Both the position numbers and the translations under genes were made by a program. DNA of 44,007 nt from Caldilineaceae bacterium SB0661_bin_34 (GTDB lineage Bacteria > Chloroflexota > Anaerolineae > Caldilineales > Caldilineaceae), in contig VXMJ01000091.1 in the NCBI GenBank assembly GCA_009841145.1, forward strand, positions 3,709-47,715. Direction: 5' to 3'. Below the pieces are notes generated by a model, which was given only the letters and a program-made list of their open reading frames with translations, was not told the DNA's origin and did no database searches. Of the stretch, positions 9,965 to 43,942 are shown piece by piece. Each line of letters begins with the position of its first letter. Positions within the stretch are counted from its first letter, which is position 1.

Positions 9965-9978
9965 CCCCGAAGGCGGGG
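9965..9978 (-). terminator. Short GC hairpin directly after the MFS gene
   Basis: Read on the minus strand, CCCCG-CCTT-CGGGG begins right after the MFS stop codon. The stem is 5 bp and there is no T run, so it may only slow or protect the transcript rather than terminate it. Confidence 0.3.
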
Positions 9979-26969: not shown

Positions 26970-27824
26970 GTGAAGGTATCCACACAGCGGCGGTTCATCC
27001 GCGGCGTGTCCTATGCGATCTTGATTCTGTGGTCGCTGACGCTGGTCTTCCCGATGTACTGGGTGTTGATCACGTCGTTCAAGAATCCGGTGGACATGTC
27101 CATCAAGGCGACCTACCTGCCTTTCCTGGACTTCGAGCCGGGACTGCACGCCTGGCGCTATCTGTTTGTCGAACGCCTGGGCTGGTTCATGCAGCCCTTT
27201 TCCAACAGCATGATCGTGGCGTTCGTCTCGTCGTCCATCGCCCTGGTGGTCGGCTCGATGGCAGGCTATGCCCTGGCCCGCTTCGACTTCAACGGCAAGA
27301 ACAACTCCATCGTGCTTGGGTTCATGGCGCAACGGATGTTTCCCGGTGCCCTGTTCATACTGGCCTTTCTGGTGATGTTCCGGGAATTGAGGCTGCTGGA
27401 CACCAAGACGGCCCTGGTGATCGTCTATGCCGCCGGCGCCATCCCGTTCATCGTGTGGGTGATGCGGGATTTCTTCGAGGGCCTGCCGGTCGAAATCGAG
27501 GAAAGCGCCCTGATTGACGGGGCCAATCGCCTGGTGGTGATCTTTCGCATCGCCATGCCCCTGGCGGCGCCGGGCCTCGTGGCCGTGTTCGTGCTGTCGC
27601 TGATTGGGGCCTGGAACGAGTACATCGTGGCCCTGACCCTGACCTTCCGGGACTCGATCACCATCCCGCTGTTCATGGGGATGCAGGTGAGCCAGACTGG
27701 CTACACCGAATGGTGGAACATGAGCGCTATTTCGCTGGTGAGCGTGATTCCCGTGGTCACGGCGGGCATGGCCCTGGAAAAGTACATCACCAGCGGTCTG
27801 ACGTTCGGGGCTCTGAAGGGGTAG
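26970..27824 (+). CDS. ABC sugar transporter permease (MalG/UgpE type)
   Basis: The 284-residue inner-membrane protein is the second permease subunit of the importer, with about six helices and the coupling loop ESALIDGANRLVVIFRIAMP. Its start is GTG 26970, with GGGGG 4 nt upstream. It follows the first permease by 31 bp and is surely co-transcribed. A pair of hairpins follows the stop codon, and no ATPase gene comes next. Confidence 0.92.
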   Translation: MKVSTQRRFIRGVSYAILILWSLTLVFPMYWVLITSFKNPVDMSIKATYLPFLDFEPGLHAWRYLFVERLGWFMQPFSNSMIVAFVSSSIALVVGSMAGYALARFDFNGKNNSIVLGFMAQRMFPGALFILAFLVMFRELRLLDTKTALVIVYAAGAIPFIVWVMRDFFEGLPVEIEESALIDGANRLVVIFRIAMPLAAPGLVAVFVLSLIGAWNEYIVALTLTFRDSITIPLFMGMQVSQTGYTEWWNMSAISLVSVIPVVTAGMALEKYITSGLTFGALKG

Positions 27825-27832
27825 GCACAGAC

Positions 27833-27888
27833 GTTCCCTCCAAGGGAACTGCAGGTTCAGGATCCTTTGAGAGTGCCGGTCACGGCAC
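27833..27888 (+). terminator. Two hairpins downstream of the permease operon
   Basis: GTTCCCT-CCA-AGGGAAC (27833-27849) and GTGCCG-GTCA-CGGCAC (27873-27888) follow the last permease gene by 8 nt and 48 nt. Neither has a clear T run. They may terminate or protect the transcript of the importer genes, which converge with the next gene. Confidence 0.35.
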
Positions 27889-28030
27889 CCGGAAGTCCAC
27901 ACAGCCCCAGCGCTTGTACTTCGGTTTGGGCCTACACGGGGTCCGTCCGACAGACCGCAGGTGCACAACCTGCGATTTGCTCCAATCCGGGGCAGGTTGC
28001 ATCGTACAAGCGTGCTCCTGCCCGGCGCGA

Positions 28031-29077
28031 TTAGTCAATGCTAAACGGCGGAGTCCAGTCCGGCGCGGGTTTGAGGTCGGCCCGCGGCGTAACGCCCGGG
28101 TTGAAGACGTGTGGCGGAAGGAATCCCCGCAGGACGTTCGAAACGGCTTGGCCTACCGTGTGCTGGGCTTCGATGTGGGAGTGCACGGACCCGCCTGACG
28201 TATGGGGGGTTAGGGTGACCTGCTCCATGGTGCGGAACGGATGATCCGCCGGCATCGGTTCCTCTTCGAAGACATCCAGCGCGGCGCCTGCGATGCGATC
28301 CTCCTGCAGCACCCTTATCAAGTCCGGTTCGTTGATGACCCCGCCGCGACTGGTATTGATGAACAAGGCGGACCGCTTCATCTTCTTGAGCTCATCCCAG
28401 CCAATCAGGCCCCGCGTGGCCGGCGACAGCGGCACGTGCACGGAAATGTAGTCACAGACTTGCAGAACCGACGGCAGATCCCAGAGTTCGACATCCAGCG
28501 CCGCCGCGTCTTCGGCATTGGCCCAAGGATCGTGGGCCACGATCCGGTGCATGGCAGGCCGCATGCGCCTTGCCACCTCCTTGCCGATGCGGCCGAATCC
28601 AATGAGGCCCAGGGTCTGCTGGTTCATCCGGTGCACGGGTTTCATGCGGGGACGGATTTCAGCCCATTGGCCTTGGTGCAGCGCGCGATCGCACAAGGCA
28701 ATCTGCCGGGCTGCGCCGTAGATGAGGGCAGCTGTCTGGTCCGCCACCTCGTGCACACAGAAAACGGCGAGATTGGAGACGATGATGTTGTGGCGCGTCG
28801 CCGCTTCGGGGTCCACGCTGTCCATGCCGATGCCGTAGCGCTGCACCAACAAGCACTTCTCAAGGCCGGCAAACACCGTCTCGTTGAAGGGTGTGTACTG
28901 GCCGGCGAACAGGACCACGTCGGCATCGTGCGCCACCGCCAGGATTTCCTGCTCGGTGCGGGCCGGCGGATCCACGATCACCAGGTCCACATCCAGCCCG
29001 TCCCAGTACGTACGCTCGATCGCCAACTGCTCGTCGGACTTGCGCCAGGGATCGATATACACAACTTTCCACGTCAT
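28031..29077 (-). CDS. D-2-hydroxyacid dehydrogenase (phosphoglycerate-dehydrogenase-like)
   Basis: The 348-residue protein is a second D-isomer 2-hydroxyacid dehydrogenase. The NAD-binding GFGRIG is at 160-165, and catalytic Arg244 (NTSRGGVIN), Glu in the FEEEP segment (about 272) and His292 (TPHTSGG) are intact. It is only a distant paralogue of the one at 16379. The closest general type is phosphoglycerate dehydrogenase without the C-terminal regulatory domain, but many members act on glyoxylate, hydroxypyruvate or sugar acids. It faces the importer genes tail-to-tail and lies 62 bp after the thioredoxin-fold gene on the same strand, so the two could share a transcript. Confidence 0.87.
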   Translation of the reverse strand: MTWKVVYIDPWRKSDEQLAIERTYWDGLDVDLVIVDPPARTEQEILAVAHDADVVLFAGQYTPFNETVFAGLEKCLLVQRYGIGMDSVDPEAATRHNIIVSNLAVFCVHEVADQTAALIYGAARQIALCDRALHQGQWAEIRPRMKPVHRMNQQTLGLIGFGRIGKEVARRMRPAMHRIVAHDPWANAEDAAALDVELWDLPSVLQVCDYISVHVPLSPATRGLIGWDELKKMKRSALFINTSRGGVINEPDLIRVLQEDRIAGAALDVFEEEPMPADHPFRTMEQVTLTPHTSGGSVHSHIEAQHTVGQAVSNVLRGFLPPHVFNPGVTPRADLKPAPDWTPPFSID

Positions 29078-29139
29078 GGCATCACCGAAAGGGATGGGTT
29101 AATGCAGGAGATGGCCGCCCATCGGGGGAGGCCCGGTCT

Positions 29140-29760
29140 TTAGGACGAGGGGTATTCCTCGGCAAGCAGACTTTGGATGGCGGCCTCGGTCTCCGCATAC
29201 CTGCCTTCGCCGATGTGCCGGTAGCGAATATGGCCCTGCTTGTCGATCAGGATCTTGGTGGGCCAGTACCGGTTGCCAAAGGCGCGCCAGGTGGCACCGT
29301 CGTTGTCAAGGCAGACCGGGTACTCGATTTCCAGGTCCTTCACCGCCTGCTCCACATTGGTCAGATCCCGCTCGTAATTGAATTCCGGATAGTGGTTGCC
29401 GATGATGACCAGACCCTGGTCCGCGTACTTGGAGTTCCATTCCCTCAACGAGGGAATCGTGCGCTTGCAGTTGATTCAGCCGAAGGTCCACATGTCGATC
29501 AGGACCACCTTGCCCTCCAATTCAGCCAGGCGCAGCGGTCGGTTGCTGTTGATCCAGACCGTGTTGGCGATTTCCGGTGCCGGTCCCAGGTCCGGAAGGT
29601 CGGATCTGACTACGGGTCGGTCCTGTCCATCGGTAGGTCCGGGATCGGCTGCAGGCTGCGGGGTTGGCGCCCCGGGATCGATTTCAGGTTGCATCGGGGG
29701 CACCAGGCACGCGGCCAATACTGCCGGCAGGATCAGCACTAGGAAGATCAACGTACGCAT
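29140..29760 (-). CDS. Probable selenoprotein: thioredoxin-fold lipoprotein with UxxC redox centre
   Basis: Two adjacent frames (29760-29476 and onward from 29475 to 29140) are the same reading frame split by one TGA at 29476-29478. Read through, they give a 206-residue protein: signal peptide with lipobox LAAC (Cys18), a Pro-rich linker (20-50), then a TlpA/AhpC-like thioredoxin fold. The TGA falls at residue 95 in DMWTFG-U-INCKRT, exactly where relatives have the first Cys of WTFGCINC, so it most likely encodes selenocysteine, giving UxxC with Cys98. Downstream motifs GLVIIGNHYPEF and a cis-Pro segment YWPTKILIDKQG are intact and show no decay. A SECIS-like hairpin follows the TGA. It would reduce or oxidise thiols or peroxides outside the cytoplasm. 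The alternative is a pseudogene with one nonsense change. Confidence 0.8.
29439..29478 (-). promoter_or_regulatory. Putative bacterial SECIS element with UGA codon
   Basis: On the mRNA, the UGA (29478-29476) is followed by 18 nt and then AUUCCCUC-GUU-GAGGGAAU (29457-29439), a perfect 8-bp stem with a 3-nt loop. The loop begins 26 nt after the UGA and its first base is G followed by U. Known bacterial SECIS elements have a stem-loop inside the coding region with the apical loop about 16-37 nt after UGA and a G in the first two loop positions, so all conditions hold. Confidence 0.75.
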
Positions 29761-30669
29761 GGAAATCCTGTGTCAGTGTTGGGGCTGGTCACGGGCCAAA
29801 GGTACCCAGAGCCTATCAGGTTCGCAGTATACAGGAATTGTCGCAGGTTTCTCACGAGCATGCGCGGAGCAATCGCAATTGTAGGCTGCAGAGGTTCCAA
29901 GAACGTCGGATTTGGCATTGGCTCAGCCGGGACCGGTGATCAGCAGACATAACCGACTTCAGTGTTTTTGCCTTCACCATAATTTCACTGAGGTTTTTCG
30001 TTCCTCGGTTCGGTGTCATCCGCTGGAGAACAGCCACTGGATCGAGATTCTGGCCGAAGTACTCGGTGCAGACAGCCAGGTACAGCGTTGATTGGCGCCC
30101 ATTGGTCCCAAGTCCGACCGGATCACTCTTGGTAGATCCCAAGGAAGATGGGGACTTGGAGCCGGGGATGGTGTCCACAGTCAGGTGGAACCGGGCTCCA
30201 ATGTCGACGAGGAACAGGTGGCAGGCACTATGTACGAGCACATGAGGTCTGGAGAGATGTACGTAATCACTCTGGTGAAGGTTAGCAACCTCGCAATGGA
30301 AGATCCCTAGGACCTTTTGAAGGGAGATGTGTGAGGACCATGTGTCGTTGGACATGGAGCACCTAGACTAGAGCGTAGCTACTGCCCAGAACAGGCTGCC
30401 GGTGGACGATGGGCAGGAAAGTGATTCAGCGGTCCAGCCGCGCGGAAGATGCTGGCATCGTTCCCCGAACTAAGCTCTCACGCTCCGCTGCTTCCACTTT
30501 TTGCTGATGTTTGCCTTGGTCAAGTACAGGCACGACTCCAATGAGCTGCATCCCAGCAACAGCAGGCCCAAGCAAGTCGACAATTTTATTGGACATCTAC
30601 TGGAGACTCGTCTACAGACTGGATACTAAAGCTGCTTTCTAAGGCACGTACCGCCGCGCGCCATCCAGA
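29761..30669. other. Gene-poor stretch at the edge of the mobile region
   Basis: About 900 bp with no supported gene. Open frames on both strands (for example minus 30355-29852 and plus 30092-30310) have no recognisable domain or good start. Their composition suggests old, decayed coding sequence. GC falls through this stretch toward the AT-rich gene that follows, so it probably marks the boundary of an acquired segment. Confidence 0.45.
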
Positions 30670-32640
30670 TCATGTCAATATGTTTCGAATTTTGATTTGA
30701 GGAGAACTCCAATTTCTATTCATAAACCAATATCCATCAACCACAGATGACGAAGTCTGAATCGAAATCAAGCCAAACCACTTATCGGCGTCACTCTTGT
30801 GTCGAAGAGCAAGTTTGAAACAAATTGATCTCACTTGTGCAGAAGTAAAATAAATCGGAAAACTGGTAAGTGTGATCCCCAACTCTCCACCTTCCAATCT
30901 AAAAGAACAATCATGCATCTTGCCATCAAGCATAGTTTGCATTTTCGCTGAATCGAATGTACTAACAACGCGATCAGCAAACTCAGATGTAAGCCCATAA
31001 AACGAAAAAATTACATCAACTACAAAAGGACCTCCTAGGTGTTTCAATTCTGCATGTAACGACTTGGTGTTCTCAGTCCAGTAGGAACTGATCACCGTAC
31101 TTGTGTCTACACCTGGCAATGGTTGGCCTTTACTTGCAGGAAATAAGACATCCACAACATTCGCAAGCTGTGGTTCAGGGACTACAACATCAAAATCGCG
31201 AGACTTCCCTAGAGGAGACCGCAAATGCAATCCAAGAATCTCCATTTCCGAGTTCATAATATATTGATTTCCAAGGCCAGTACGTTGACTCACATAATAG
31301 AGGAGATCAATTTGATCCTTGAGGAGACTGCAAATGATCTCCAAATCAAATACACTCATTATCAACGGAAACGGATCGCCTTCTTTCTTCTCCAATAGGG
31401 CTCTTTGTTGGGCTTGCAGTGCTGGATAGCTGTCACCAGTAATGCACAGAATATAAATCTCGTCCACGGATGAAATGTTTACCCGACTGCCTTTGTTATT
31501 CACTAGCTTGACTGTGTTGTCATTCAATATAAGGGACCGACAACTCAGCCCCTGAGTATAGGCACCCTGACAAGCTATTTGGAAATCATTTTTCAATTTG
31601 GATCTGTCTCCTCTTTTCGCTAATGCTGTAAGCTTTTTTGATTTGACTTGAACTACAAATGCTTTGTTGCTATAGACAAAAAGCACATCAATCTCAGCTT
31701 TTATCTGTTTGCCCTTTAAAATGTTCACTCCTTGGTATGTTCGGCCATTCTGATTGGAATCAAACAAAATGTGATATACGATTCTTTCGGTGGCTGGGCC
31801 TCGGTTGCGCAACGCTTGTTGGCTGTATTTATTATCTTCACACATCCAGTAATATGGACTTTCATAGATGGATTGGTTCAAAAAAGTGTGATCTGCCAAA
31901 AAGTAACGTTGATCAAGCATGATCAACGGTGTGATCTCTGCATCATTGACGTCGTTAATATGGTCAAACTTTTTATTGGCTTCCCCAGGTTGGCATGAGA
32001 ACAGGTCAAAAAAGCGATTTACCGTTTCTGCTGGCTCGCTGTGCAGCTGCGTAGGGTCAATACAGAACACATCCAATAAATCAGTATTGGCGCACTCATT
32101 CTCCCGTGGATTAGCTCTTGTACCTTTGATCTCAACAGCAATGTTGATCATCGATTGTATACTGATTCCCAATGAGTTCTCGAACCACTCTTCGTCGTAG
32201 GCGTACCGATAGGATGCTAGTTCGAGCCATTGGAAGTCGTAAGCTCCCGGATTGTCATAAAAAATCGGCTCAACCAGCGGTTGGAGTTTCAGAATTTCTT
32301 CGACAGAATTAAATTTCTCTGATTGTAGGTCAGAAAATGACGGGAACTCGGACAATGAAACAGAATTGTGGAGTTCCTCTAACAAGCGGCCTGCCTTTTT
32401 TTGTTGACGCTCAAATGAAAATTTGCATTTGGGGAGTTCTAGGGTTATGGGATTCTTGATCATCAACCCCAGTAGAAATGATAGTTCTTTGTGATTGAGG
32501 CGATTGGTCCAGTTGACGTCCAAGATGTCGGATGGTGCAATAGCAATATTTTTCAATACCAATGTGCAATATGCATAAATGAAACCTTGTTTGTTGACCA
32601 AGTTGGTAAGTTGGGAAATAATCGGCGTGGGGTCTGCCAT
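30670..32640 (-). CDS. AT-rich large protein with PD-(D/E)XK-like nuclease motif
   Basis: The 656-residue protein was not recognised as a whole. Near its middle, ERIVYHIL then AEIDVLFVYSNKAFVVQVKS (about 20 residues) matches the order of a PD-(D/E)XK nuclease core: a helix Glu, an Asp in a strand, and Q-x-K in the next strand. The NERD and related nuclease-like domains look similar. The N-terminal third is mostly helical and the C-terminal third has alternating strands; no membrane segment is visible. Its base composition is far more AT-rich than every neighbour and its codon use follows, so it was probably acquired. ATG 32640 is preferred; the frame extends to GTG 32772 into the IS-adjacent hairpin. 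It lies next to an IS and the defence operon and may be a defence effector. Confidence 0.6.
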   Translation of the reverse strand: MADPTPIISQLTNLVNKQGFIYAYCTLVLKNIAIAPSDILDVNWTNRLNHKELSFLLGLMIKNPITLELPKCKFSFERQQKKAGRLLEELHNSVSLSEFPSFSDLQSEKFNSVEEILKLQPLVEPIFYDNPGAYDFQWLELASYRYAYDEEWFENSLGISIQSMINIAVEIKGTRANPRENECANTDLLDVFCIDPTQLHSEPAETVNRFFDLFSCQPGEANKKFDHINDVNDAEITPLIMLDQRYFLADHTFLNQSIYESPYYWMCEDNKYSQQALRNRGPATERIVYHILFDSNQNGRTYQGVNILKGKQIKAEIDVLFVYSNKAFVVQVKSKKLTALAKRGDRSKLKNDFQIACQGAYTQGLSCRSLILNDNTVKLVNNKGSRVNISSVDEIYILCITGDSYPALQAQQRALLEKKEGDPFPLIMSVFDLEIICSLLKDQIDLLYYVSQRTGLGNQYIMNSEMEILGLHLRSPLGKSRDFDVVVPEPQLANVVDVLFPASKGQPLPGVDTSTVISSYWTENTKSLHAELKHLGGPFVVDVIFSFYGLTSEFADRVVSTFDSAKMQTMLDGKMHDCSFRLEGGELGITLTSFPIYFTSAQVRSICFKLALRHKSDADKWFGLISIQTSSSVVDGYWFMNRNWSSPQIKIRNILT

Positions 32641-32722
32641 GTTTCTTCTCTTTGAATAGATTAGGTTGAACAATTGCTGCAATAGCATGATATTTGGCGG
32701 CCTTTTATAAATGTCGATGGCG

Positions 32723-32747
32723 TGAACAATTTTCGAGATAAAGATGT
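32723..32747 (+). repeat. Left copy of an imperfect 25-bp direct repeat
   Basis: The sequence TGAACAATTTTCGAG followed by ATAAAGATGT matches 22 of 25 positions at 43451-43475. Further similarity continues a few bases beyond. It lies next to an IS remnant here and a transposase remnant there, so it may be an IS end. Confidence 0.6.
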
Positions 32748-32753
32748 TGCCGG

Positions 32754-32784
32754 CTAGGGCAGGGCGCAGCACTCCCTGCCCTAG
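32754..32784. repeat. 11-bp perfect inverted repeat abutting the IS end
   Basis: CTAGGGCAGGG and CCCTGCCCTAG are exact complements separated by 9 nt. The right arm shares its final CTAG with the first bases of the IS. It may be a terminator-like target into which the element inserted. Confidence 0.6.
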
Positions 32785-33597
32785 TGAGCTGCTGAAGATT
32801 TGGTTTGGGAAGCGATCGGCAACGGCGTAAGGTACGCGGTACCGGAGTTCGGGCAGTCCGATGGGCCTTGAAGCCCCTGTTGCGGTACCGCATGTCCCCT
32901 GGTAGCCGCGCAGAGTTGTTGTTGTCTCATCCGGACGGCTTTGCTGCAGTCACCGGCTCGTCCAAGAGCTTGGCTAGGCGCATCAGATGGTAGTCCGTCG
33001 CCACCAAGTAGTCGGCCACACTGGTCTGCTCTGCGTTCCGGTAGTGGGTTCTCAGGAAGCTCTTGAGGCTGGCCACAGCCTCGATCAGTGTCCCGTCCAC
33101 GCTGAAGTGCTCGCCCGACAGCAGCCCTTCTTCGTCGGCCACCCACACCACCTCGTCGAAAAGGGCCCGGCCCGCGTCGTACGCCAGCAGCCGTTGCCGG
33201 TTCTTGGTGAAGACCGTGGCATCGAAGCTGCGCTCCTTCAGATCCATGTCTTGGAACTAGCAGTAGAGTAGGTTGTACTCGAGCTCCTCGCCGAAGGCGC
33301 GCTCGCTGCGCACCGAGTACAGGGCGATCAGGAGCGAGGCCTTCAGCAGCCGCTCCGGCGGCACCGAGGCGCGTCCCACCCGCGCGTACATGCGGTCGAA
33401 GGTCGGCGAGAACCATGCCAGGGCCGCATCGGCCACTTCCTCAATCCGCCGCAGCGGATGGTCCCGGGGGAACTGTTCCTTCAGGTCCACGATGACCAGC
33501 ATGCTGCGTTGGGGGTTGGGACCACCGCGCATCAGGAACTCCTTTGTTGCCATGCAGACCTAGTCCTAACTGGCCGCGTTTTTCAGCAGTCTACTAG
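32781..33597 (-). mobile_element. Deleted insertion sequence with terminal inverted repeats (IS1182/IS5-like)
   Basis: The ends are CTAGTGAGCTGCTGAA (32781-32796) and, on the other strand, CTAGTAGACTGCTGAA (33597-33582), matching 13 of 16 positions. Between them is a broken transposase gene read on the minus strand. The total of 817 bp is about half of a complete element of this kind, so it has lost its middle. The family name is from memory of end sequence and protein and should be checked. Confidence 0.7.
32927..33553 (-). pseudogene. Transposase pseudogene (nonsense codon and internal deletion)
   Basis: The frame from ATG 33553 reads as a DDE transposase N-terminus (RSMLVIVDLKEQFPRDHPLR; PPERLLKASLLIALYSVRSE; FGEELEYNLLYC). 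A TAG at 33257-33259 interrupts it where relatives continue with W-F-x-D-M-D-L, and the same frame resumes with DMDLKERSFDATVFTKNRQ and EHFSVDGTLIEA, which carries the first catalytic Asp. After LKSF the frame passes directly to a segment like the extreme C-terminus of the family (TDYHLMRLAKLL), so the other catalytic residues are deleted. It cannot transpose by itself. Confidence 0.8.
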
Positions 33598-34342
33598 AGA
33601 GTGAGAGGCACGAGAGCCAGGGCGTCTACGAAGGCGGATGCGGTCTTAGGGTACCCGGTCTCGTAGCAGCATGTGGGCGGGCGCGAACGCGGCGGAAGCC
33701 CTGCTCCCGCAGTTCCACGGCAGTGACAGAGTTGGTAGGCATAGGTCGGACCAAGGTGCTGCGGTGGTACCGGCAGAAGCCTGGATGCAGTGCGGCTCCC
33801 CGCTGGGTGGGATGGGCAAGCTCTCCCACCTGACATCGGCACAGGAGGCGCAGTTTATGGTGGTAGCCCGGGACTGGGTCGAGGCACAGTGGGGCATCGT
33901 TTACACACGCCTCAACCTTCAACTGGACCTGGTAGGAGACCTGCGCCCGCGCAGGGCCGCAGGCCGGTGGAGGGAGGGGGATGGCAATATCCTTCCGTGG
34001 TTTCCACGGACAAAAATCATAACGCAATCATCATAGTACCAGCTCCCAAGGCGGCCAGTATGACCGACCAGTGGGGGCTTTGGGTACCGCAGGTGTGCCG
34101 GTTGTCCTCGCAGGACACGCAAGTGCTCCCTGCCCTCCATCCTAGATGTTATGAGACTGAGTGGAAGGTACGTCATTTCATAACGTTGCGATATGATAGA
34201 TCTGGGTTGATTCGGCCCGGGTGGCCGCCTGTCGGAGTGGGAGGAGAGCACATGGGCAAGACGAATCTGTTTCGTCGTGATTTGGTTCGTTGTGCCACCA
34301 ATCCTCAGCAATCGTCCGGTCAACACAGTTCCTGGAATGCCC
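33598..34342. other. Non-coding or decayed region upstream of the defence operon
   Basis: About 745 bp. Frames on both strands (plus 33671-34036, minus 34027-33626) show no recognisable domain and are probably relics. The promoter of the operon should be near its right end; a TATGAT hexamer at about 34190 may be a -10 element, without a convincing -35. Confidence 0.4.
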
Positions 34343-37294
34343 ATGTCAAGTCTGAAAAGTCTGGTCCGCCCTCGCAAGGAGGTATTGGAATCCACGCTTG
34401 ACGAATCGATTTTCGCTGCGAATCTGGGTACGGTGCTGCAAGGCACTGCGCCACCCGTCTACGGAGATGCGGGTGAGTTCTTTTCTCGCACCCATCCATC
34501 GTCTGGGCTGAAGGCCCTGCTCAACCTCTGCCTTGGGCGCCTTGTAGGCGCACAGCCGGACGCGCCGCCGATCATCCGCATCGACACCAACTTGGGTGGC
34601 GGCAAGACCCATAACCTAATTGCCCTCAGCCACGCGGTTCAGGGCGGTCTGGACGCAGCCTCCGCGGAAAGACTTCTGTCGCCACCGGTCAGACAGACGC
34701 TGGACCAAATGCCGGGTGTGCGCTTGGCCGCTTTCGTAGGCACCGACCATGGCGTGTCCGAAAGCGAAAGCACCATGTGGGGGCTGCTGGCCAACCAACT
34801 GGGCGGAGCGTCGGGTTATGCCCTGGTGCGTCCGGACGATGTGGGCCGAACCGCTCCAGGCACCGCCACGCTGGCAGAACTATTGGGCAACGAACCCAAT
34901 CTGATCGTGGTCGACGAGATTGCCCAGTACCTCCAAAAGGCCGATGGAGTGGCAGTGGGAAACGGTACGCTTGCGGACCAGACCTTGACTTTCCTGATGG
35001 CCCTGTGTGAAGCCGCAGCCCGGGTTCCACGTACGGTTCTGGTCCTGACAACCACACAAGATTCGAGCGTATTCAGCAGCGGTACCGAGAAGGTCGTTGC
35101 CTTGATGACCCGTGTGCGGGAAATCACCGGACGGCAAGCCCACCTAATCCAGCCTTCAGCGGAGGCAGACCTGCCTTCCATCCTGAGCCGCCGGCTGTTC
35201 AAGCATGTGGATCGCTCTTACATTGCAGACATTGCTGCTTCCTATGCGGATGCCCTGACAGCGGCGGAGCAGCGCTGGGAGAGCGGTTTGCCTGCCGAAC
35301 TGGCTCCCGTGCGTCTGGCATCCCGCATGCACGAGACCTGGCCGTTCCATCCGGAACTCATTGTGTTGCTGGACAAGCGGCTTTCGACTAACCCCTACTT
35401 CCAGCGCACCCGTGGAGCCCTGCGTCTGTTGGCCCGGACAATTCAGTTGCTCTGGAAGAACGGGGCAGCGTCCGCCAGTGCAATCCATCCACATCATCTG
35501 GACCTGGCTGACGGGGTCATCATTCGACCGCAGTTGACCCAAGCCCTGCAGCAGCCCCAGATGGAAGCTGTGGCACGGGCCGATGTGGCCAATGAGAATG
35601 AGCATGAACCTTCGAGGGCGGACCTGATAGACCAGCGGTACGACGCGTCCTGTATCCGCCACGCCGCGACTACCTGCTTTGTCCATTCCCTGCACTTGGG
35701 CGCGGCCATGACGCAAGGACATACGCTGGCCACCACGCTGGAACCCGGCACGGACGCGGACATTCTGCTGGATGGATGGACCCGGCTGGTTCGAGAGGCC
35801 TGGTATCTGCATCAGGACAGTGAGGGCTTCCGCTTCAAGACGGAGCCGTCCTTGACCAAGATGGTGGTCGACCGAACGAACGAAGTGCGGACATCGCAAG
35901 CGCGCAGTGCGGCACAGGAACTGCTGGAGAACCTCTTCTCTTCCAGTAGCAGCACCGGCAACGTCCGTCGCATGTACCTCAACGAAAAGGCACCCGACAA
36001 CCTTGCCCATATCAACATCTGCGTCTTCGGATGGGCACAGTTCAAGGGCGAGCACGGTGTGGTCGATTACGACTCTCCGCCTCAGGTCATTCTGGACCAC
36101 TGGAGGCAGCTGGACAGCGGTGGACAACGGCGGTACCTGAACCACATGGTGTTCATTGCACCGAATGCCCAGTACTACGACCGCATGCTCAAGGTCCTAC
36201 AACGCCGCATTGCCCTGGACACCCTGATTCAGGATGGTTCGGTCACGGAACGCCTGAGCCCGGATGTCCTGGGCGATCTCACGGATCGTTGCAACAAGCA
36301 GCAGCTGGAAGCTCGCGTCGCTGTCGCGAATGTTATGAATCTCTGCTGGTATCCGGCTACGAACGACAGGCTGGAACTGGTGGAACTTACGGTGGACAGC
36401 AAGGCCCGAGCCAAGCGGAACCAGACAGAGGTCATCTTCGAGCAATTGCGCGAGCGGGGGAAGCTCCTGACAGCGGACAGTTCCCCCATGGACCCGGCGC
36501 GACTGAGGCAGATGCTGGGAGAGCGTCTTAGCCGCAGCATCACCATTCGCGGTGTGCAGGAGTTCATGGCCAGCTCCGGCAGCAGTCCCATGCTTCTGGA
36601 TTCCGGGCAGCTGCGGACGGTTATCCAAAACGGCATTCGTATGGATGTTTGGGACTGTCAGCAGGCGAACGGCGGCTGGGTAGACAAGCTGGACCTGGAT
36701 TCCTTCAGTCTGGACGAAGAATACCGCCTCCATGCGCCTGGAACCAAACCAGAACCGTGTGCCCCATGCGACAAACCAACCCCCGCAGCATGTCCCGCAT
36801 GTGGTGAGCATTCCTGTGTTTGTAGCCAACCTCCGCCAACCAGTGAATTCCAGTCCACGCGTGCGCCTGCAGAAGCGATTGAGGATGTAGTTGCCCAGGC
36901 CCAGGACGCTTCGGCCACCCGTATGGAGGAACTGATTCTGGAATGGGATGCAGAGCAGGATGCCGCGCTTGGGTGTGTGGCCAAAGCCCTGCACACGCTC
37001 GCGCAAGTCCGAATCCACCCCAACGTTGATCCATCGCTGAGTGTTGATCTAGACACGGAAACCGAGGGCAAGCCATTCACCCTCAAGATGACATGCTCCG
37101 CGCCGCAAGCCCAGATGATGGGGGACAGCCTCAAGGCCATCCTTAGGCAAGGTGAAGGGACTGCATGCACAACCAGGATTGTGCTCGCCTTCCCGGCCTC
37201 GACATCGGTTGAGGGAAATGAGAAGCGAACAATCCAGGACGCCGTACGAGGGACCATGGTCTCAAGGTCCCTCACCATCCTGAAAACGGCATGA
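34343..37294 (+). CDS. DUF499-type AAA ATPase of a defence-associated operon
   Basis: The 983-residue protein matches the DUF499 ATPase family. The P-loop LGGGKTH is at about 84-90 and the Walker B acids at VVDEIAQYL (Asp191-Glu192). The family is related to the large ATPases of BREX-like systems and is often found beside DUF1156 methylases. Near the C-terminus (nucleotides about 36757-36831) is a Cys cluster of CxxC, CxxC and CxC that could bind zinc. The start could be ATG 34343 or 34337; upstream frame starting at GTG 34277 is less likely. Its stop overlaps the next start (ATGA), so it is the first gene of a coupled operon. It probably couples ATP hydrolysis to DNA sensing or loading of the methylase or helicase. 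Confidence 0.85.
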   Translation: MSSLKSLVRPRKEVLESTLDESIFAANLGTVLQGTAPPVYGDAGEFFSRTHPSSGLKALLNLCLGRLVGAQPDAPPIIRIDTNLGGGKTHNLIALSHAVQGGLDAASAERLLSPPVRQTLDQMPGVRLAAFVGTDHGVSESESTMWGLLANQLGGASGYALVRPDDVGRTAPGTATLAELLGNEPNLIVVDEIAQYLQKADGVAVGNGTLADQTLTFLMALCEAAARVPRTVLVLTTTQDSSVFSSGTEKVVALMTRVREITGRQAHLIQPSAEADLPSILSRRLFKHVDRSYIADIAASYADALTAAEQRWESGLPAELAPVRLASRMHETWPFHPELIVLLDKRLSTNPYFQRTRGALRLLARTIQLLWKNGAASASAIHPHHLDLADGVIIRPQLTQALQQPQMEAVARADVANENEHEPSRADLIDQRYDASCIRHAATTCFVHSLHLGAAMTQGHTLATTLEPGTDADILLDGWTRLVREAWYLHQDSEGFRFKTEPSLTKMVVDRTNEVRTSQARSAAQELLENLFSSSSSTGNVRRMYLNEKAPDNLAHINICVFGWAQFKGEHGVVDYDSPPQVILDHWRQLDSGGQRRYLNHMVFIAPNAQYYDRMLKVLQRRIALDTLIQDGSVTERLSPDVLGDLTDRCNKQQLEARVAVANVMNLCWYPATNDRLELVELTVDSKARAKRNQTEVIFEQLRERGKLLTADSSPMDPARLRQMLGERLSRSITIRGVQEFMASSGSSPMLLDSGQLRTVIQNGIRMDVWDCQQANGGWVDKLDLDSFSLDEEYRLHAPGTKPEPCAPCDKPTPAACPACGEHSCVCSQPPPTSEFQSTRAPAEAIEDVVAQAQDASATRMEELILEWDAEQDAALGCVAKALHTLAQVRIHPNVDPSLSVDLDTETEGKPFTLKMTCSAPQAQMMGDSLKAILRQGEGTACTTRIVLAFPASTSVEGNEKRTIQDAVRGTMVSRSLTILKTA

Positions 37295-37689
37295 CCCTGT
37301 CGTACCGGCTGGTTGCGAGCCGTGATACCGATGGCTGCATCAATCGGTTCGATGTCTTGGATGTGGATGGTCGGTCGGTCACCCTGCATGGCTGGCGCGC
37401 AGAAGCTGTTGTGGATTCAGTCCAGGCAACCCTGACACGCGCATCCAGGCGCCTGTCATTGGCGGTGGATCGGCCTTTGCATCTGGACGAACACCTAGGG
37501 GTTCAAGTCCTGCTGATTTTGCGAGCGGTCAAGCCGCTTGCCGGCTATCAACGTGTCACTCGGGTGGCGATGGGTATAGCCCGAATGTCCGAAGAAGAGG
37601 CCACCTATTGGCATGCCCATGCCGCCCACAAGGGTGGACTCCCAGCATTGAGGAAGTTGCTGATTTCATGTCCAAACCACGCCCTCTAA
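37291..37689 (+). CDS. Small unknown protein coupled to the DUF499 ATPase
   Basis: The 132-residue protein starts inside the stop of the ATPase gene (ATGA) and overlaps the methylase start at 37668, so all three genes are translationally coupled. It is predicted to be mixed strand and helix with no membrane segment. Small proteins of this size commonly follow DUF499 genes, but I do not recognise a named domain with certainty. It may be a structural or adaptor subunit of the complex. Confidence 0.7.
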   Translation: MTLSYRLVASRDTDGCINRFDVLDVDGRSVTLHGWRAEAVVDSVQATLTRASRRLSLAVDRPLHLDEHLGVQVLLILRAVKPLAGYQRVTRVAMGIARMSEEEATYWHAHAAHKGGLPALRKLLISCPNHAL

Positions 37690-40600
37690 TCACGCGATGG
37701 TTTCCTGCGGCGACCATCGGCGCGGAGTCACTCCGCGATGTATCCGCCGGACAGCAGCCGCCGCCCAATCGCCTCCATGTGTGGTGGGCCCGCCGACCGT
37801 TGACCACCGCACGCGCGGCTGTTGTTGCAACTCTTTTGCCGGCTTGGCAGGACCCTGAAGGGATACAACCTCATGAACACGCCCCGACTCGCTACCCAAT
37901 GGATGCCAACCCCTCAGTTGGGAGCGGAGTCCCTCAGGGAGAGAGCAGCCTCAAGCTCTCTTCCGCCCCTGTACTTCCTACACGTTTGGTGGGCACGTCG
38001 CCCTCTGATTCTGGCCAGAGCGGCGGTGCTGGCAGCACTACTGCCAGCGTGGACAGAAACCAATCTTCGCCCCCCCCCTCTGAAATTCAGGAATTGCTGA
38101 ACTCTACGTTCGGTTCGGAATCCGAGTACAGACGGTGGTTCCTTGAGGCGATAGGCATCAAGGGGGATCCAGTTGTTGCTAGACAGCAGATTGTTGAAGC
38201 TGTACAGTCTGGAAACCGCATAAAGAACCCATATGGTTACAACCGTGCTTTCACATCCAATCCCTTACCCGAGCATCGACAATTTCTGAAAACAATAACA
38301 TATTTTCAGAAAGATACCGCTGAAAGCAATCAACCCGTAGTCCTTGATCCATTTGGTGGTGGTGGCTCGATTCCCTTTGAAGCTGCGAGATACGGGTGCC
38401 ATGGGCTGACCACTGAACTGAATCCAGTTGCAACAGCGATTCTCCATGGAACGGTCGATTTGCCGTTCCGCTTGGGTGAGGGTTTCTCTGAAACTCTTTC
38501 GCAATGGGGAGAGTACTGGTGCCAGTTGATCAACGACCGACTGGCACGATTTTTCCATCGTACAGACGAACAGCGCTTGGCTTGTGTTTGGGCACTAACC
38601 GTACCTTGTCCCACCACCGGGCATCCCACCCCTCTGCTCCCCAACCACTGGTTGGCTCGTACTGCCCAACAGAAGGTGGCGATCAAGCTGCATCCGGACA
38701 GCGAAACTGGGCGAATCTCGATCGAGTTGCTAGGCAGTGCCACTGTATCAGAGGGCAACCAGTTCACCTACAAGCGTGGAGCGGCCACAAGCGTATTCAC
38801 TGGAGACACCTTTGACGGCAAATACATTGCCTCTGAGGCTCAGGCTGGCCGCATGGGGCATCTGTTGTATGCCATCGCTTATCGTCCCGCTAACGGCCGG
38901 GGGACCCAGTTCCGAGTGCCGGTTGACGAGGATTTCGCGGCCTTGGGGAAGGCTGAGCAGTACCTCAAGGTCAATTGGGATAAGTGGGATGCCAAGGGAC
39001 TGATACCTACCGAGCCATTTCCAAGTGGGTCTGACAACAGGCCTCTTACCTACGGCATGCTCCGTTGGTGTGACATGTTCACAACCCGCCAATTGGTGGC
39101 CCTGGTCACTGCAGTTGAATGTCTGCACGAAGTCCTTGAGGAAGCCTCCGACGAACTGGACTTGGATACGCTCAAGGCGCTCAACCTGTACCTCGCTTTC
39201 GCGATTGACAAGGTCGTGGACTACAACAGTAGGTTGACCATGTGGGATCCAACCTATCTGAAGGTCGCCCACGTCTTCTCTCAGCACAATTTCTCATTGA
39301 GCTGGACGTTCGCGGAGATGGAGGGAATTGATGCCTGTCGCTGGGGGCTGAAACAGGTTGTTGACTGTTACAGGGACATCTCCAAGCTGGTTGGTAGAGC
39401 ACAGGTATCTAGAAATGGCGCGTTGCTGCCGGATCAGGTGTCTGCACCACTTCTTCCGGCAGAACCTACTTTGACATCTGCCACCACACTTCCCTATGAG
39501 GACCAATCGGTTGATGCCATCGTGACGGATCCTCCGTACTACGACAACGTCATGTATGCAGAACTCTCGGACTACTTCTACGTATGGCTCAAACGCTCTC
39601 TCAAGCCCTACTGGCCAGAACTCTGTCGGCAGCACCTCTCCGACAAGGACAACGAGGCAGTGTCCAACCGAGCCCGTTTCGCCGATATGGCCACCCACTC
39701 CGGACGCGGTAAGAAACCACCCGGCGCCGTAACGGCTCAGGAACTTGCCGAAGCCCACTACCAGTCCATGATTGCTCGCGCTTTCGCCGAGGCATACAGG
39801 GTGTTGCGAGACCACGGTGCCATGACGGTGATGTTCACCCACAAGAGAGCCGACGCCTGGAATGCACTGGCTACGGGGCTCCTCAACGCCGGTTTTCGCA
39901 TCGAGTCTTCGTGGCCGGTTTCCACTGAGTCGGAGCATTCGCTCCACCAGAAAGGCAAGAATGCGGCGAACGCCACGATCCTTCTCACCTGCACCAAGCG
40001 AGGGAGTTCGGAGCCTGTGTGGTGGGATGACATCCAGTCGGAAGTTCGGAAGGCGGCACACGAAGCTGCAATTCGGCACGCCGAAGATGGCTTGGCCGGT
40101 GTGGACGTAACCCTTGCGTCCTTCGGTTCGGTGCTGTCAGTCCTGTCCCGACACTGGCCCGTCTACACCGGCAACCTTGACGCTGACGGCAATCGTCAGA
40201 TCATTTCGCCTGAGGTGGTTTTGAACCTTGCTCGGGAGGAAGTCGGCCGCACCAAGATTGCCCGACTGCTCCAGGGACGACAGGAGTACCAGTTTGATCC
40301 ACCTACCCAGTGGTGGCTGCTTGCATGGCATGACTTCGGAGCACCAAAGTTCCCCGCTAGCGAGGCAATCAAGCTTTCCCATGCGACACACCTGGATCTG
40401 GAGACCGAACTGCGCAAGAGTTGGCGCCTAGTGGAGACCAAGAGTGGAACTGCTGAGATCCTGACCCCGGCCAGACGCTTTGAAGCACGGGCCTTCCAAG
40501 TGGATTCCCTCTACCTACTGGACACGTGGATTGATCGGCTTCATGCCCTGATGGTGATACACGAACAGGATGGAGCAGTTGCGTCACGCCAGTGGCTCGG

Positions 40601-40802
40601 TGACCGGGAGCTTGATCAGAGCCAGCATCTCAAGGAGTTGGTGGACGCTGCCCTGAGGGTAGTCCCAAGACACAGGAACAGCAATGGTGAACTGGCCCTG
40701 CCCGAAGCGCGAACATTGGAGTCGATGCGCCAAACCCTGGACCTGTTCCATGATCTGGAGCCGCCAGCTCCCGGCATTGCCCAGATGGATCTCTACGGTT
40801 AG
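37668..40802 (+). CDS. DUF1156-type DNA methylase with a doubled N-terminal region
   Basis: This 1044-codon frame encodes an N6-adenine or N4-cytosine DNA methylase. It begins with a DUF1156-like module (GAESLRD ... LHVWWARRPL, residues 18-45), has SAM motif LDPFGGGGSIPFEAA (about 226-240) and catalytic motif Asp621-Pro-Pro-Tyr (TDPPYYDNVMYAELSDYF). In between, residues 61-135 read as an unusual low-complexity linker because they translate, out of frame, a second N-terminal module at 37873-38064. A run of nine C at 38070-38078 sets the frame. ATG 37668 overlaps the preceding gene and has AGGAAG about 11 nt upstream. The enzyme would modify host DNA so that the helicase or nuclease partners spare it. 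Confidence 0.85.
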   Translation: MSKPRPLITRWFPAATIGAESLRDVSAGQQPPPNRLHVWWARRPLTTARAAVVATLLPAWQDPEGIQPHEHAPTRYPMDANPSVGSGVPQGESSLKLSSAPVLPTRLVGTSPSDSGQSGGAGSTTASVDRNQSSPPPSEIQELLNSTFGSESEYRRWFLEAIGIKGDPVVARQQIVEAVQSGNRIKNPYGYNRAFTSNPLPEHRQFLKTITYFQKDTAESNQPVVLDPFGGGGSIPFEAARYGCHGLTTELNPVATAILHGTVDLPFRLGEGFSETLSQWGEYWCQLINDRLARFFHRTDEQRLACVWALTVPCPTTGHPTPLLPNHWLARTAQQKVAIKLHPDSETGRISIELLGSATVSEGNQFTYKRGAATSVFTGDTFDGKYIASEAQAGRMGHLLYAIAYRPANGRGTQFRVPVDEDFAALGKAEQYLKVNWDKWDAKGLIPTEPFPSGSDNRPLTYGMLRWCDMFTTRQLVALVTAVECLHEVLEEASDELDLDTLKALNLYLAFAIDKVVDYNSRLTMWDPTYLKVAHVFSQHNFSLSWTFAEMEGIDACRWGLKQVVDCYRDISKLVGRAQVSRNGALLPDQVSAPLLPAEPTLTSATTLPYEDQSVDAIVTDPPYYDNVMYAELSDYFYVWLKRSLKPYWPELCRQHLSDKDNEAVSNRARFADMATHSGRGKKPPGAVTAQELAEAHYQSMIARAFAEAYRVLRDHGAMTVMFTHKRADAWNALATGLLNAGFRIESSWPVSTESEHSLHQKGKNAANATILLTCTKRGSSEPVWWDDIQSEVRKAAHEAAIRHAEDGLAGVDVTLASFGSVLSVLSRHWPVYTGNLDADGNRQIISPEVVLNLAREEVGRTKIARLLQGRQEYQFDPPTQWWLLAWHDFGAPKFPASEAIKLSHATHLDLETELRKSWRLVETKSGTAEILTPARRFEARAFQVDSLYLLDTWIDRLHALMVIHEQDGAVASRQWLGDRELDQSQHLKELVDAALRVVPRHRNSNGELALPEARTLESMRQTLDLFHDLEPPAPGIAQMDLYG
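37873..38100 (+). pseudogene. Second DUF1156 N-terminal module in another frame, cut off at the C run
   Basis: From ATG 37873, with AAGGGA about 9 nt upstream, a frame encodes MNTPRLATQWMPTPQLGAES ... LHVWWARRPLILARAAVLAALLPAW, clearly homologous to residues 1-60 of the longer frame (GAESLR and HVWWARRPL shared) but only about half identical. It ends at TGA 38098 just after the C run. If the run had ten C (or seven), this frame would pass directly into SEIQELLNSTFGSESEYRRW and the complete catalytic body, with a natural linker. It is therefore either the ancestral or alternative start of the methylase, switched off by one base, or an artefact of homopolymer length. Confidence 0.75.
38070..38078 (+). 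repeat. Nine-C homopolymer, possible phase-variation tract
   Basis: Nine consecutive C lie at the junction between the doubled N-terminal modules and the methylase body. Slippage by one base would exchange which N-terminus is in frame. Such tracts cause phase variation in many methylase genes, and they are also frequent sites of sequencing error. Confidence 0.7.
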
Positions 40803-40820
40803 CAACGGACTGGATCGAGA

Positions 40821-43433
40821 ATGTCTGGATTGCGCGATCTGACGCTGAAACCCAAGTACGGGCTCGGTGATGACTTCCTGAATGATGTGTACGTTCCGCT
40901 CTTGGGGAGAGCGATCCGATATACCCGGGCCGTTGGATACTTCAGTTCAGGCGGCCTCGCGTCGGTTGGTTCGGGATTGGAATCCTTCATTCGCAACAAC
41001 GGTTCCATGCGCCTGATGGCAAGCCCGGTGGGATGGAGTCCGCAAGATGTGGAGGCACTGAGCGGCCACCGGGAAATTCCTCGGGAACTTGCTGACCGGC
41101 TTGCCAGGTCCTTGATTACCAAGAGCGACATCGAGCGGGACCATCTGTCGGTGTTGGCCTGGCTGATGAGAGAAGGCCGACTTGAAACCCGCATCATCAT
41201 CGGTCCGAACGGTCAGCTCTTCCATCAGAAAGTGGGCATGTTTTGGGATTCCAGGGATGATGCCGTTGGCATTGAAGGGTCCAACAACGAAACACTAGCC
41301 GGTTGGGACTCGAACATCGAATCGCTTTCGGTCCGTCGGTCCTGGCTGGATCAGGAAGCCTGGTTCCCCGCGACCATTGCAGAGCTCGACCGGTTGTGGC
41401 AAGGCAGTTCCCACAGCAGGTCATACTCGCTGCCTGAGGCTGTGAGGAAGGAGTTGCTGAAATACGCCCAACACAGGCCACATCCGATTCCGAAACCAGT
41501 TAGCAAGTCCCTGCAACTCTACCCACATCAACAGGAAGGCTGTGACCGGCTCCTTGCAGCATGGCCGGAGTCCCGCTTACTGGCCGATGAGGTTGGTTTG
41601 GGCAAGACGATCACAGCCTCCGCAGCCATGCAGGCTCTGCAGGCGCAAGGGAAATGCCAGAGAGTGTTGATCTTGGCGCCTGCCAACGTCTGTATCCAGT
41701 GGCAGGAGGAACTTGCGGAGAAGTTCAACATGAAGGTTCCCCGCTTGGTAAAGAACTATCTCCACAATGTTGATGGGAGCGAACATGCGGCAGTCAATCC
41801 TCTCAATGAACCCATGCTCATTGCCTCGTGGCATCTGATGCGACAGCCGACTTGGCGTAGCCGTCTACTGCAAGGACCGGATTGGGATCTGGTAATAGTG
41901 GATGAAGCGCACCATGCGCGCCGTCGTAGTCCAGGTTCCGACCTCAAATCAGGAATTCGGCGGCCGAATCAGTTTCTGGAACTGCTTGAAGAGGTGTTGC
42001 CCCAGATTGCTCGCACGCTGTGGCTCCTGACCGCGACACCCGTCCAGCTTCACTTGGTCGAATTATTTGACCTCCTGAATGTCATCAAACCCGATTCAGA
42101 ACCGCAATCATCTCCACTGGGCTCTTGGTTCAAATTTGAACGCTTTTACACGGCGCTGGCTGCTCCCAAAAGCGACCGGAACTGGGAAGCCTTGGGTATG
42201 GGAGTAGGTGAGACAGTGCCAGTCCAACTGGACCCCCGCAAATACAGTGAACTGAAACCATTCTTGCGGCGTCAACTGACAGGGTTCGGCAGACCAGGAC
42301 GCGATGCCGTACAGGACGCAGACACCCTTGTTAAGCATGAACTGCAGGAGGAACTACTGGAATCCATTCGGCAGCGTTCGCCTGGCAGCCGGCTGATGCT
42401 GCGCCGTACCCGTAGAGACGCGGACATGCAAGGGGCGTTTGCGACCCGGCAGCCATCCAAAGAGGCTATCGAGTTTGCCTCTGCGGAGGAGCGAAGTCTG
42501 TATCAGGAACTGGATGCCTTCTTGGCTGGCCTATGGGCCATGAGGCACGGCAGAGACAAGGGGTTTGGTTTCCTCTTGTCAATGTATCGGCGGCGCTTGA
42601 CTTCCAGTTGGCAAGCCATTGAACGCACGATTCAGCGTGCGCTGGCTGCCACCAGCCTGCCCGATGACGAAATGGAACTGCTGGAATCGGGGCTGGACGC
42701 AAGCATGTCCGATGAGATCGGCTCTGGCGGCAATGAGGAAGGATTCAGTACTGAAGAGATGGAAGTCCTTCGGTGTTTTGCTGCCAGGATCGGAGGTGCC
42801 ATTCGGGGAGCCGGCGATCCCAAGATTTCCAGCTTGGTGCAGGATCTTCACACCTGCCGTCTTCAAGGCAGGTCCATGCTGGTGTTCACTCAGTTTATTG
42901 ATACGTTGGAATACATTCGGGATACCCTACAGTCGACCTATGGCTCCCAAGTTGGTACATACTCTGGTCAGGGGGCAAGGCTGTTTGAGGATGGTACATG
43001 GACCCCGGTGTCCAAGGAGCAACTGACCTTGGCGCTTGCCAATGGCGAGATCTCCATCCTGCTCTGCACCGATGCAGCCAGTGAAGGTCTCAACCTTCAG
43101 ACTGCAAGCACATTGGTCAATTACGACCTTCCTTGGAATCCAATGCGCGTTGAGCAGCGTATTGGACGCATCGACCGCATCAACCAAGCAGCGCGAACTC
43201 TTTCCATCCGCAACTACGTGATGTTGGATACCGTGGAGGAGCAGGTGTATGACGCTTTGCGAAAACGCATCAGAGTGTTCGAGGGTTCGGTTGGTGAACT
43301 ACAGCCTATCTTGGGTGAGGTGGAAGACCTTGTCACGGGGTCTACTGTCGGCAACGTAGTGAGAAACTTGGACAGCCACATCGCTGCCATGGGAAACACA
43401 GGTAAGCCGATTGCGGCAGCATTGCGATGCTGA
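40821..43433 (+). CDS. PLD-like domain plus SNF2-family helicase
   Basis: The 870-residue protein combines an N-terminal phospholipase-D-like domain (His135-x-Lys137 in FHQKVG, and GSNNET at 153-158) with a SNF2/RapA-type helicase: P-loop ADEVGLGKT (255-263), DEAH (361-364), LTATP, and C-terminal motifs EGLNLQTAS and QRIGRIDRI. Single HxK domains of this type can be nucleases. Similar PLD-SNF2 proteins occur in DISARM-like and DUF1156/DUF499 defence loci, where they are thought to act on invading DNA. It starts 18 bp after the methylase and ends 18 bp before an IS-like repeat, so the C-terminus may have been shortened by insertion. Confidence 0.88.
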   Translation: MSGLRDLTLKPKYGLGDDFLNDVYVPLLGRAIRYTRAVGYFSSGGLASVGSGLESFIRNNGSMRLMASPVGWSPQDVEALSGHREIPRELADRLARSLITKSDIERDHLSVLAWLMREGRLETRIIIGPNGQLFHQKVGMFWDSRDDAVGIEGSNNETLAGWDSNIESLSVRRSWLDQEAWFPATIAELDRLWQGSSHSRSYSLPEAVRKELLKYAQHRPHPIPKPVSKSLQLYPHQQEGCDRLLAAWPESRLLADEVGLGKTITASAAMQALQAQGKCQRVLILAPANVCIQWQEELAEKFNMKVPRLVKNYLHNVDGSEHAAVNPLNEPMLIASWHLMRQPTWRSRLLQGPDWDLVIVDEAHHARRRSPGSDLKSGIRRPNQFLELLEEVLPQIARTLWLLTATPVQLHLVELFDLLNVIKPDSEPQSSPLGSWFKFERFYTALAAPKSDRNWEALGMGVGETVPVQLDPRKYSELKPFLRRQLTGFGRPGRDAVQDADTLVKHELQEELLESIRQRSPGSRLMLRRTRRDADMQGAFATRQPSKEAIEFASAEERSLYQELDAFLAGLWAMRHGRDKGFGFLLSMYRRRLTSSWQAIERTIQRALAATSLPDDEMELLESGLDASMSDEIGSGGNEEGFSTEEMEVLRCFAARIGGAIRGAGDPKISSLVQDLHTCRLQGRSMLVFTQFIDTLEYIRDTLQSTYGSQVGTYSGQGARLFEDGTWTPVSKEQLTLALANGEISILLCTDAASEGLNLQTASTLVNYDLPWNPMRVEQRIGRIDRINQAARTLSIRNYVMLDTVEEQVYDALRKRIRVFEGSVGELQPILGEVEDLVTGSTVGNVVRNLDSHIAAMGNTGKPIAAALRC

Positions 43434-43450
43434 TCTCATTACCAATGGTA

Positions 43451-43475
43451 TGAACAGTTTTCGGAATAAAGATGT
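43451..43475 (+). repeat. Right copy of the imperfect 25-bp direct repeat
   Basis: TGAACAGTTTTCGGA followed by ATAAAGATGT matches 32723-32747 at 22 of 25 positions, in the same orientation. It lies just after the helicase stop and 139 bp before the remnant transposase, and probably marks one end of that element. Confidence 0.6.
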
Positions 43476-43602
43476 CTCTGGCCTGGACGAGGATTCATCA
43501 TCCTGTCTTTGCTTGCGGAGACATCCGGGACCGCGACGGCCAGCGGTCGATGCAGGGGGGCACGGCTCCTGTTATGGTGTTGGTGTCAAGCCACGCCATC
43601 CC

Positions 43603-43607
43603 GGAGG
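43603..43607 (+). promoter_or_regulatory. Ribosome binding site of the remnant transposase
   Basis: GGAGG lies 6 nt before GTG 43614 and identifies that codon as the start. Confidence 0.6.
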
Positions 43608-43613
43608 TGTTCC

Positions 43614-43942
43614 GTGCCCCTGCTGCCCACTATACTGGCGGCCCTGCCCGTCGGCAAACCGCAACGAGCCTACCTCGGCGCCCTGCTGCCCCTGCTGGTC
43701 GGCCTGCCGGTCCTGCCCACGCACCGCAACCTGGCCCGGTTCGGCGACCGCTGCCCCCACACCCACGGACGCCAGGCGGCCCGCGCCTGCGACTTTGCGG
43801 CGCTCAACCTGGCCGGGCTGTGCGCGGTGGTGCCCTACGCGCACGACCTGGCCCGGTTGGGGACTGCACCTGCCTGCCCAAGAGTGGGCGCAAGCTGCCG
43901 GGGGTGGGCTGGCGCTGGCACAAGGCCTATTCGACTAGGTAA
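43614..43942 (+). pseudogene. Frameshifted, truncated transposase (IS4/IS701-like N-terminus)
   Basis: From GTG 43614 the frame reads PLLPTILAALPVGKPQRAYL and then HRNLARFGDRCPHTHGRQAA, the N-terminal part of a DDE transposase family. At about 43860 homology moves to another frame: DCTCLPKSGRKLPGVGWRW (the first catalytic Asp region) is read there, ending at a stop at 43940-43942. A frameshift and early stop therefore break the gene, and the rest lies outside the window or is deleted. The family name is tentative. Confidence 0.7.

Follow-up and report, generated by a model that had tools for sequence, protein, structure and literature searches.

The window analysed here is a stretch of 44,007 nts from Caldilineaceae bacterium SB0661_bin_34 (source genome 4.34 Mb in 102 contigs), and the coordinates given refer to the whole of it. 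It contains a four-gene operon for a DUF499 ATPase, a small DUF7680 protein, a DUF1156 N6-adenine methylase and an HKD-SNF2 helicase (Table 1), whose methylase gene begins with two tandem DUF1156 N-terminal modules, termed alpha and beta. These lie in different reading frames and meet at a tract of nine C residues, a feature missed in an initial sequence-only reading of the same DNA. On balance, comparison with related genomes favours the tract being a genuine phase-variable selector with three states, in which the methylase body would be fused to alpha, to beta or to neither (OFF). The fuller proposal, that this three-way frame selector switches between two self/non-self specificities and OFF, and that a short segment of the module is a specificity dial for the whole family, is more tentative and is put at slightly below an even chance.

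Table 1. Features of the operon, its methylase start and a neighbouring gene (positions in the window)
Feature	Position	Strand	Evidence
DUF499 AAA+ ATPase (HmaC/BrxC-like)	34343..37294	+	PF04465 E=2.9e-29, 102 bits (cut-off 23); PADLOC HmaC E=4.6e-79
DUF7680 small protein, 132 aa	37291..37689	+	PF24728 E=5.5e-23, 82 bits
DUF1156 N6-adenine methylase, open reading frame as assembled (alpha fusion)	37668..40802	+	PADLOC HmaB; PF06634
Alpha module, first DUF1156 N-terminal domain, frame 0, ATG 37668	37668..37872	+	PF06634 E=6.8e-16
Alpha variable segment, 11 residues VSAGQQPPPNR before LHVWWARRPL	37740..37772	+	alignments
Beta module, second DUF1156 N-terminal domain, frame +1, own ATG 37873	37873..38069	+	PF06634 E=4.6e-15
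Beta variable segment AASSSLPPLYF	37945..37977	+	alignments
C9 homopolymer tract joining modules to methylase body	38070..38078	+	sequence; length varies in relatives
HKD (PLD)-SNF2 helicase	40821..43433	+	SNF2, Helicase_C, weak PLDc_2; PADLOC PLD_Helicase
Gene with weak NERD nuclease-like domain, 700 aa, low GC (about 41%)	30670..32772	-	PF08378 E=0.0027, under cut-off

Two N-terminal modules and a tract of variable length

Beta is a divergent yet clearly related copy of the alpha DUF1156 domain. In the window assembly the methylase body continues the alpha frame; it carries the motifs DPFGGGGS (about 38346) and DPPYYDN (about 39528), and its match to the Pfam profile N6_N4_Mtase is slightly under the cut-off of that profile. 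The short beta open reading frame (ORF) stops at 38100, and in the alpha fusion the beta DNA, read out of frame, encodes a linker of about 73 residues rich in Ser, Gly and Pro. The double module and its tract are confined to one clade and have a single origin (support 100/100). Four haplotypes of one genus were compared (window/L079, L077, L078 and L076), the tract being expressed as its total C/A length. A total of 9 puts alpha in frame, both in the window and in a second species, G003 (L015/L079); these are separately assembled metagenome-assembled genomes (MAGs), with four internal single nucleotide polymorphisms in about 9.1 kb. A total of 10 puts beta in frame, with an open protein of 979 aa, in genome G002 (L017/L077), and at totals of 8 (L016/L078) and 11 (L018/L076, the G001 copy) neither module is in frame. 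Frame-changing variation of tract length within the coding region is found, therefore, in all three phases among the four haplotypes, the lengths being those of MAGs of related species and not of strains of one species.

Both modules are under purifying selection, the ratio of nonsynonymous to synonymous polymorphism (pN/pS) across the four haplotypes being about 0.16 for alpha and about 0.11 for beta. In L078 the same ARR to SRK replacement is present in both modules, in different codons, as expected if both must fit one enzyme. C9 windows are rare genome-wide in G002 (21 in 4.0 Mb) and G003 (26 in 4.6 Mb); shuffled sequences give about 1.5 per 44 kb. The notion that C9 runs are common in the genus was considered and rejected, as the runs inspected in the two genomes with high counts are largely artefacts of contig ends and gaps, and the two cleaner genomes have few.

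Several points weigh against a three-state selector. The 73-residue low-complexity linker of the alpha fusion is seen in no single-module homologue, and the openness of the alpha frame across the beta module says little, its probability by chance being about 0.25 per haplotype. The haplotypes number only four, from a single genus; the close relatives are all MAGs, with tract states compared between assemblies, and the assemblies of G000 and G001 hold spurious poly-G/C runs elsewhere. The OFF state in G001 may reflect decay, since an insertion sequence (IS) lies within its DUF499 gene. [Long poly-G/C runs occur at G000:C2:3742-3853, near 34154 of G000:C3 and in C37, C47 and C69 of G001, at contig ends, beside N gaps and within contigs. 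They are most likely sequencing artefacts and call for caution with any claim about homopolymers.]

In a rival arrangement only beta is the true methylase N-terminus, and alpha forms a small DUF1156 protein of its own whose translation is coupled to that of DUF7680. In its favour, the beta fusion is spaced as single-module homologues are and is free of the odd linker, and in relatives the start codon of alpha shares ATGA with the stop codon of DUF7680. Tract lengths that place beta out of frame would then be assembly errors or decayed copies, for which the poly-G artefacts in G000 and G001 and the interrupted ATPase gene of the latter offer some precedent. However, the C9 form with alpha in frame is present in two separately assembled genomes of different species, and the tract of L078, a C7 short enough for reliable assembly, nevertheless leaves beta out of frame. 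Errors or decay would be needed in three of the four haplotypes despite purifying selection on both modules, and this arrangement is unlikely.

That the tract is instead a site of programmed frameshifting or transcription slippage, with both methylases made together from one mRNA, is improbable. Runs of C7-C10 are potentially slippery, and the tract follows both N-termini, but tract length varies through all three phases between haplotypes, so that no fixed shift would serve, and no RNA structure stands out near the tract (z -1.26). The IS interruption in G001 and the limitation of the doubling to one genus would suit a degenerate remnant, a tandem partial duplication that arose by recombination and is drifting with a functionless second module. 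Against this are the pN/pS values of 0.11-0.16, frames that are open in all four haplotypes, the parallel replacement in L078 and methylase bodies that align without internal breaks, and there is little to recommend a remnant.

If the tract is a three-state selector, slippage would reversibly switch the cell between alpha methylase, beta methylase and OFF. The methylase would mark self DNA within a restriction-modification-like machine, in which the ATPase would be the scaffold, the HKD-nuclease/SNF2-helicase the effector and DUF7680 a further component. On the BREX analogy, a cell without the methylase would lose restriction as well as modification, and OFF would then be safe. That the alpha and beta forms differ in specificity, as may be supposed from their variable segments, is held with less confidence than the selector itself.

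There are precedents for parts of such a scheme. In E. coli BREX, methylation and defence are both lost when brxX is deleted, and it has been proposed that brxX is phase-variable through a tract (PMC6326788). The proposed phase-variable brxX/pglX (cited in PMC6326788) likewise have a homopolymer tract in methylase coding sequence; their variation, however, is ON/OFF only, whereas here there would be two alternative N-terminal modules as well as OFF. In Helicobacter pylori, C-tract frameshifts turn a Type IIG methylase on or off and alter its recognition site via the C-terminal domain (PMC3936762). The change of specificity in JHP1272 and HP1353-HP1354 comes from gain or loss of that C-terminal domain, in contrast to the choice of N-terminal module proposed here. 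In H. canadensis and N. gonorrhoeae, too, tract length determines which protein end, of those lying in different frames, is made (PMC2823697, PMC5320596). There it is the C-terminal sequence that is switched; the present case would be its mirror image, with variation of the N-terminus, a conserved domain. Within the limits of the literature searched, no description of N-terminal module selection by a tract was found. If the model is correct, overlapping frames allow phase variation to pick one of two complete N-terminal modules for a defence methylase, a compact design absent from that literature.

The segment that distinguishes alpha from beta

The 11 residues that precede LHVWWARRPL take one of two forms in about 30 single-module homologues, alpha-like (for example STGQHPPPNR or ASAARKPPLNR) or of the beta type (for example ASSALPPLYF). 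A further version, TPMTPFPAPNR, is found in IMG/VR contigs L162, L165, L170 and L171. Each label requires 10 changes on a tree built from 30 methylase bodies, the means for shuffled labels being 10.3 and 9.7, so the labels swap on the tree as freely as shuffled ones. In the ATPase, DUF7680, the helicase and the remainder of the methylase, no column follows the label more closely than permutation would predict. As the segment toggles freely while nothing within the system follows it, its behaviour is most readily accounted for if it touches something outside the system, either the DNA target or a phage inhibitor. Only a few versions exist, each kept across wide evolutionary distances, and for this reason it would most likely tune target-site specificity; a role in escape from phage inhibitors appears less likely. 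A dimorphism exchanged between lineages in the course of evolution would here have become switchable inside one gene. Should this be so, the short DUF1156 segment becomes a candidate for what determines specificity in a class that has been reported from thousands of taxa (PMC12839542). Switching by cassette inversion or from silent copies was also considered and is unsupported, as the single-module loci showed no additional DUF1156 cassette.

The model of the beta methylase (predicted local distance difference test score, pLDDT, 86) matches the Trm11/Trm14/TrmN methyltransferases with Z of 15-17, and the structural alignments begin at model residues 10-29. From these aligned ranges the LHVWWARRPL helix is likely part of the methylase core, with the variable segment just before it; the placement of the segment relative to the active site is derived from the same ranges. 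The 11 residues, beside this N-terminal helix, would tune an outward-facing property of the enzyme. Without DUF1156 the modelled core is probably incomplete, which is consistent with an inactive OFF state.

An operon of the BREX-related class with DUF7680

The sequence-only reading had described a defence-like operon combining modification, ATPase and helicase functions, with four genes in one orientation. This description holds: the ORF list confirms the four, all intact, on the + strand, and shows 34343-43433 to be filled by these core genes alone (no search of the whole window or genome was aimed at the BREX gene PglZ). The overlap of starts and stops applies to the first three genes, DUF499 and DUF7680 sharing ATGA and DUF7680 overlapping the methylase by 22 nts, but the methylase and the helicase are 18 nts apart. 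A PADLOC search with the operon proteins matched HmaC (265 bits), HmaB (238) and PLD_Helicase (221). HmaC and HmaB are the top matches for the ATPase and methylase, and HmaA ranks seventh for the helicase. NCBIfam 'anti-phage-associated' models also match, though far under their equivalog cut-offs. PF00176 and PF00271 are matched by the helicase, with PF13091 under its cut-off, and an HxK...GSNN motif near 41223-41288 is kept in relatives.

Three DUF499-centred, BREX-related (BR) systems were defined by Rakesh and Krishnan in 2026 (PMC12839542), and judged by its sequence matches and gene order the locus is almost certainly an operon of this published class. Type-2 BR has an HKD-SNF2 fusion in 83% of taxa and DUF3780, as a standalone gene, in 98% (PMC12839542); the earlier suggestion that a fusion with a single HxK motif marks a distinct subtype falls, as such a fusion is the hallmark of that type. 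Of the published types the operon is, by its gene content, nearest to Type-2 BR, and its kind is already known. Shared with that type are the DUF499 ATPase, the DUF1156 N6-methyltransferase, the HKD nuclease fused to an SNF2 helicase and a small gene between ATPase and methyltransferase, the position occupied by DUF3780 in the DUF3780 loci compared. It differs in having DUF7680 instead of DUF3780 as the small gene, a helicase of about 870 aa as against about 1060-1270 in most relatives, and the doubled DUF1156 module with its poly-C tract. The ATPases of the DUF7680 type form a lineage separate from the DUF3780 clade in a quick tree made for the present comparison, on which, and not on the published tree, they were placed. 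Hma (PADLOC; PMC8565338), which is Type-1 BR, also has helicase, methylase and ATPase. By contrast with Hma, there is an additional DUF7680 gene here, and the helicase has an N-terminal HKD domain and fits PLD_Helicase, PbeA or DrmD better than HmaA. The DUF7680 branch sets the operon apart, and still more so does the two-frame methylase start with its variable tract.

DUF3780 had been reported as not seen. By name it is indeed absent from G000, but the slot between ATPase and methylase is held by DUF7680, probably a distant homologue and the counterpart of DUF3780 in this operon. The DUF7680 and DUF3780 profiles align over 132 columns with an hhalign score of 22.1 (best of 200 column shuffles 9.7; reversed control 1.3). 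The homology is graded as probable, not proven, because the hhalign probability is only 17%. DUF3780 is lacking in 40 of 41 genomes with DUF7680; in the one that has both, it lies at another locus, next to a different DUF1156 gene. The AlphaFold model of DUF7680 is confident (pLDDT 89). No significant match was obtained with it in a structure search of the PDB, and DUF7680 is unmentioned in the literature searched. Sequence searches of the PDB made in the analysis yielded nothing useful.

Among the genomes sampled, DUF7680 is present in 18 of 400 from the phylum and in 28 of 392 from the class, and it adjoins a DUF499 gene wherever the contig extends far enough. The order DUF499-DUF7680-DUF1156-helicase recurs in dozens of loci (extra genes intervene in some), across Chloroflexota, on a Pseudanabaena plasmid and on IMG/VR contigs L162, L163, L165, L166 and L167, and because of this recurrence the operon is not a chance assembly. 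An alignment query found 59 DUF1156 loci among IMG/VR contigs. Scanning viral contigs with the window methylase alone yielded no relatives, and scanning them for the exact beta-module DNA no match; a loose two-motif DNA pattern, applied to 396 genomes, matched everywhere and was discarded as lacking discrimination. [BR-type operons occur in several gene orders on many IMG/VR contigs catalogued as viral (L161-L219), which suggests that they are carried by proviruses or that the contigs are misassigned islands.] A second, divergent DUF499-DUF7680-DUF1156 system is present in the genus of the window, in G003 and G001 (L013, L014, L080, L081); its DUF1156 gene, visible in L014/L081, has one module there.

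Chromosomal site and exchanged block

By DNA comparison the loci of the window, G003, G002 (L077) and G001 are at one chromosomal site, L078 being a second copy within G002. Positions of about 27500-43921 in the window (about 16 kb) are about 100% identical to G003 (C32, C171 and C363), as against 92-98% in the adjacent upstream backbone, which indicates that an island was recently exchanged, by transfer or recombination, between the two genomes. A mobile island among IS remnants had been suggested earlier, and this is partly borne out by the block of about 27.5 kb to 43.9 kb shared with the second species. A transposase fragment (DUF772) lies upstream of the operon at 33260-33553. In G001 an IS splits the DUF499 gene (L018 about 8497-10000 and L019 10824-11032), and 6 bp of its target (window 35161-35166) are present on both flanks.

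Within the exchanged block, on the opposite strand to the operon, is a NERD-like gene whose identity to the second species is 98.7-100% per 300 bp and which is unmatched at the G002 site. It is a possible auxiliary effector outside the core operon.
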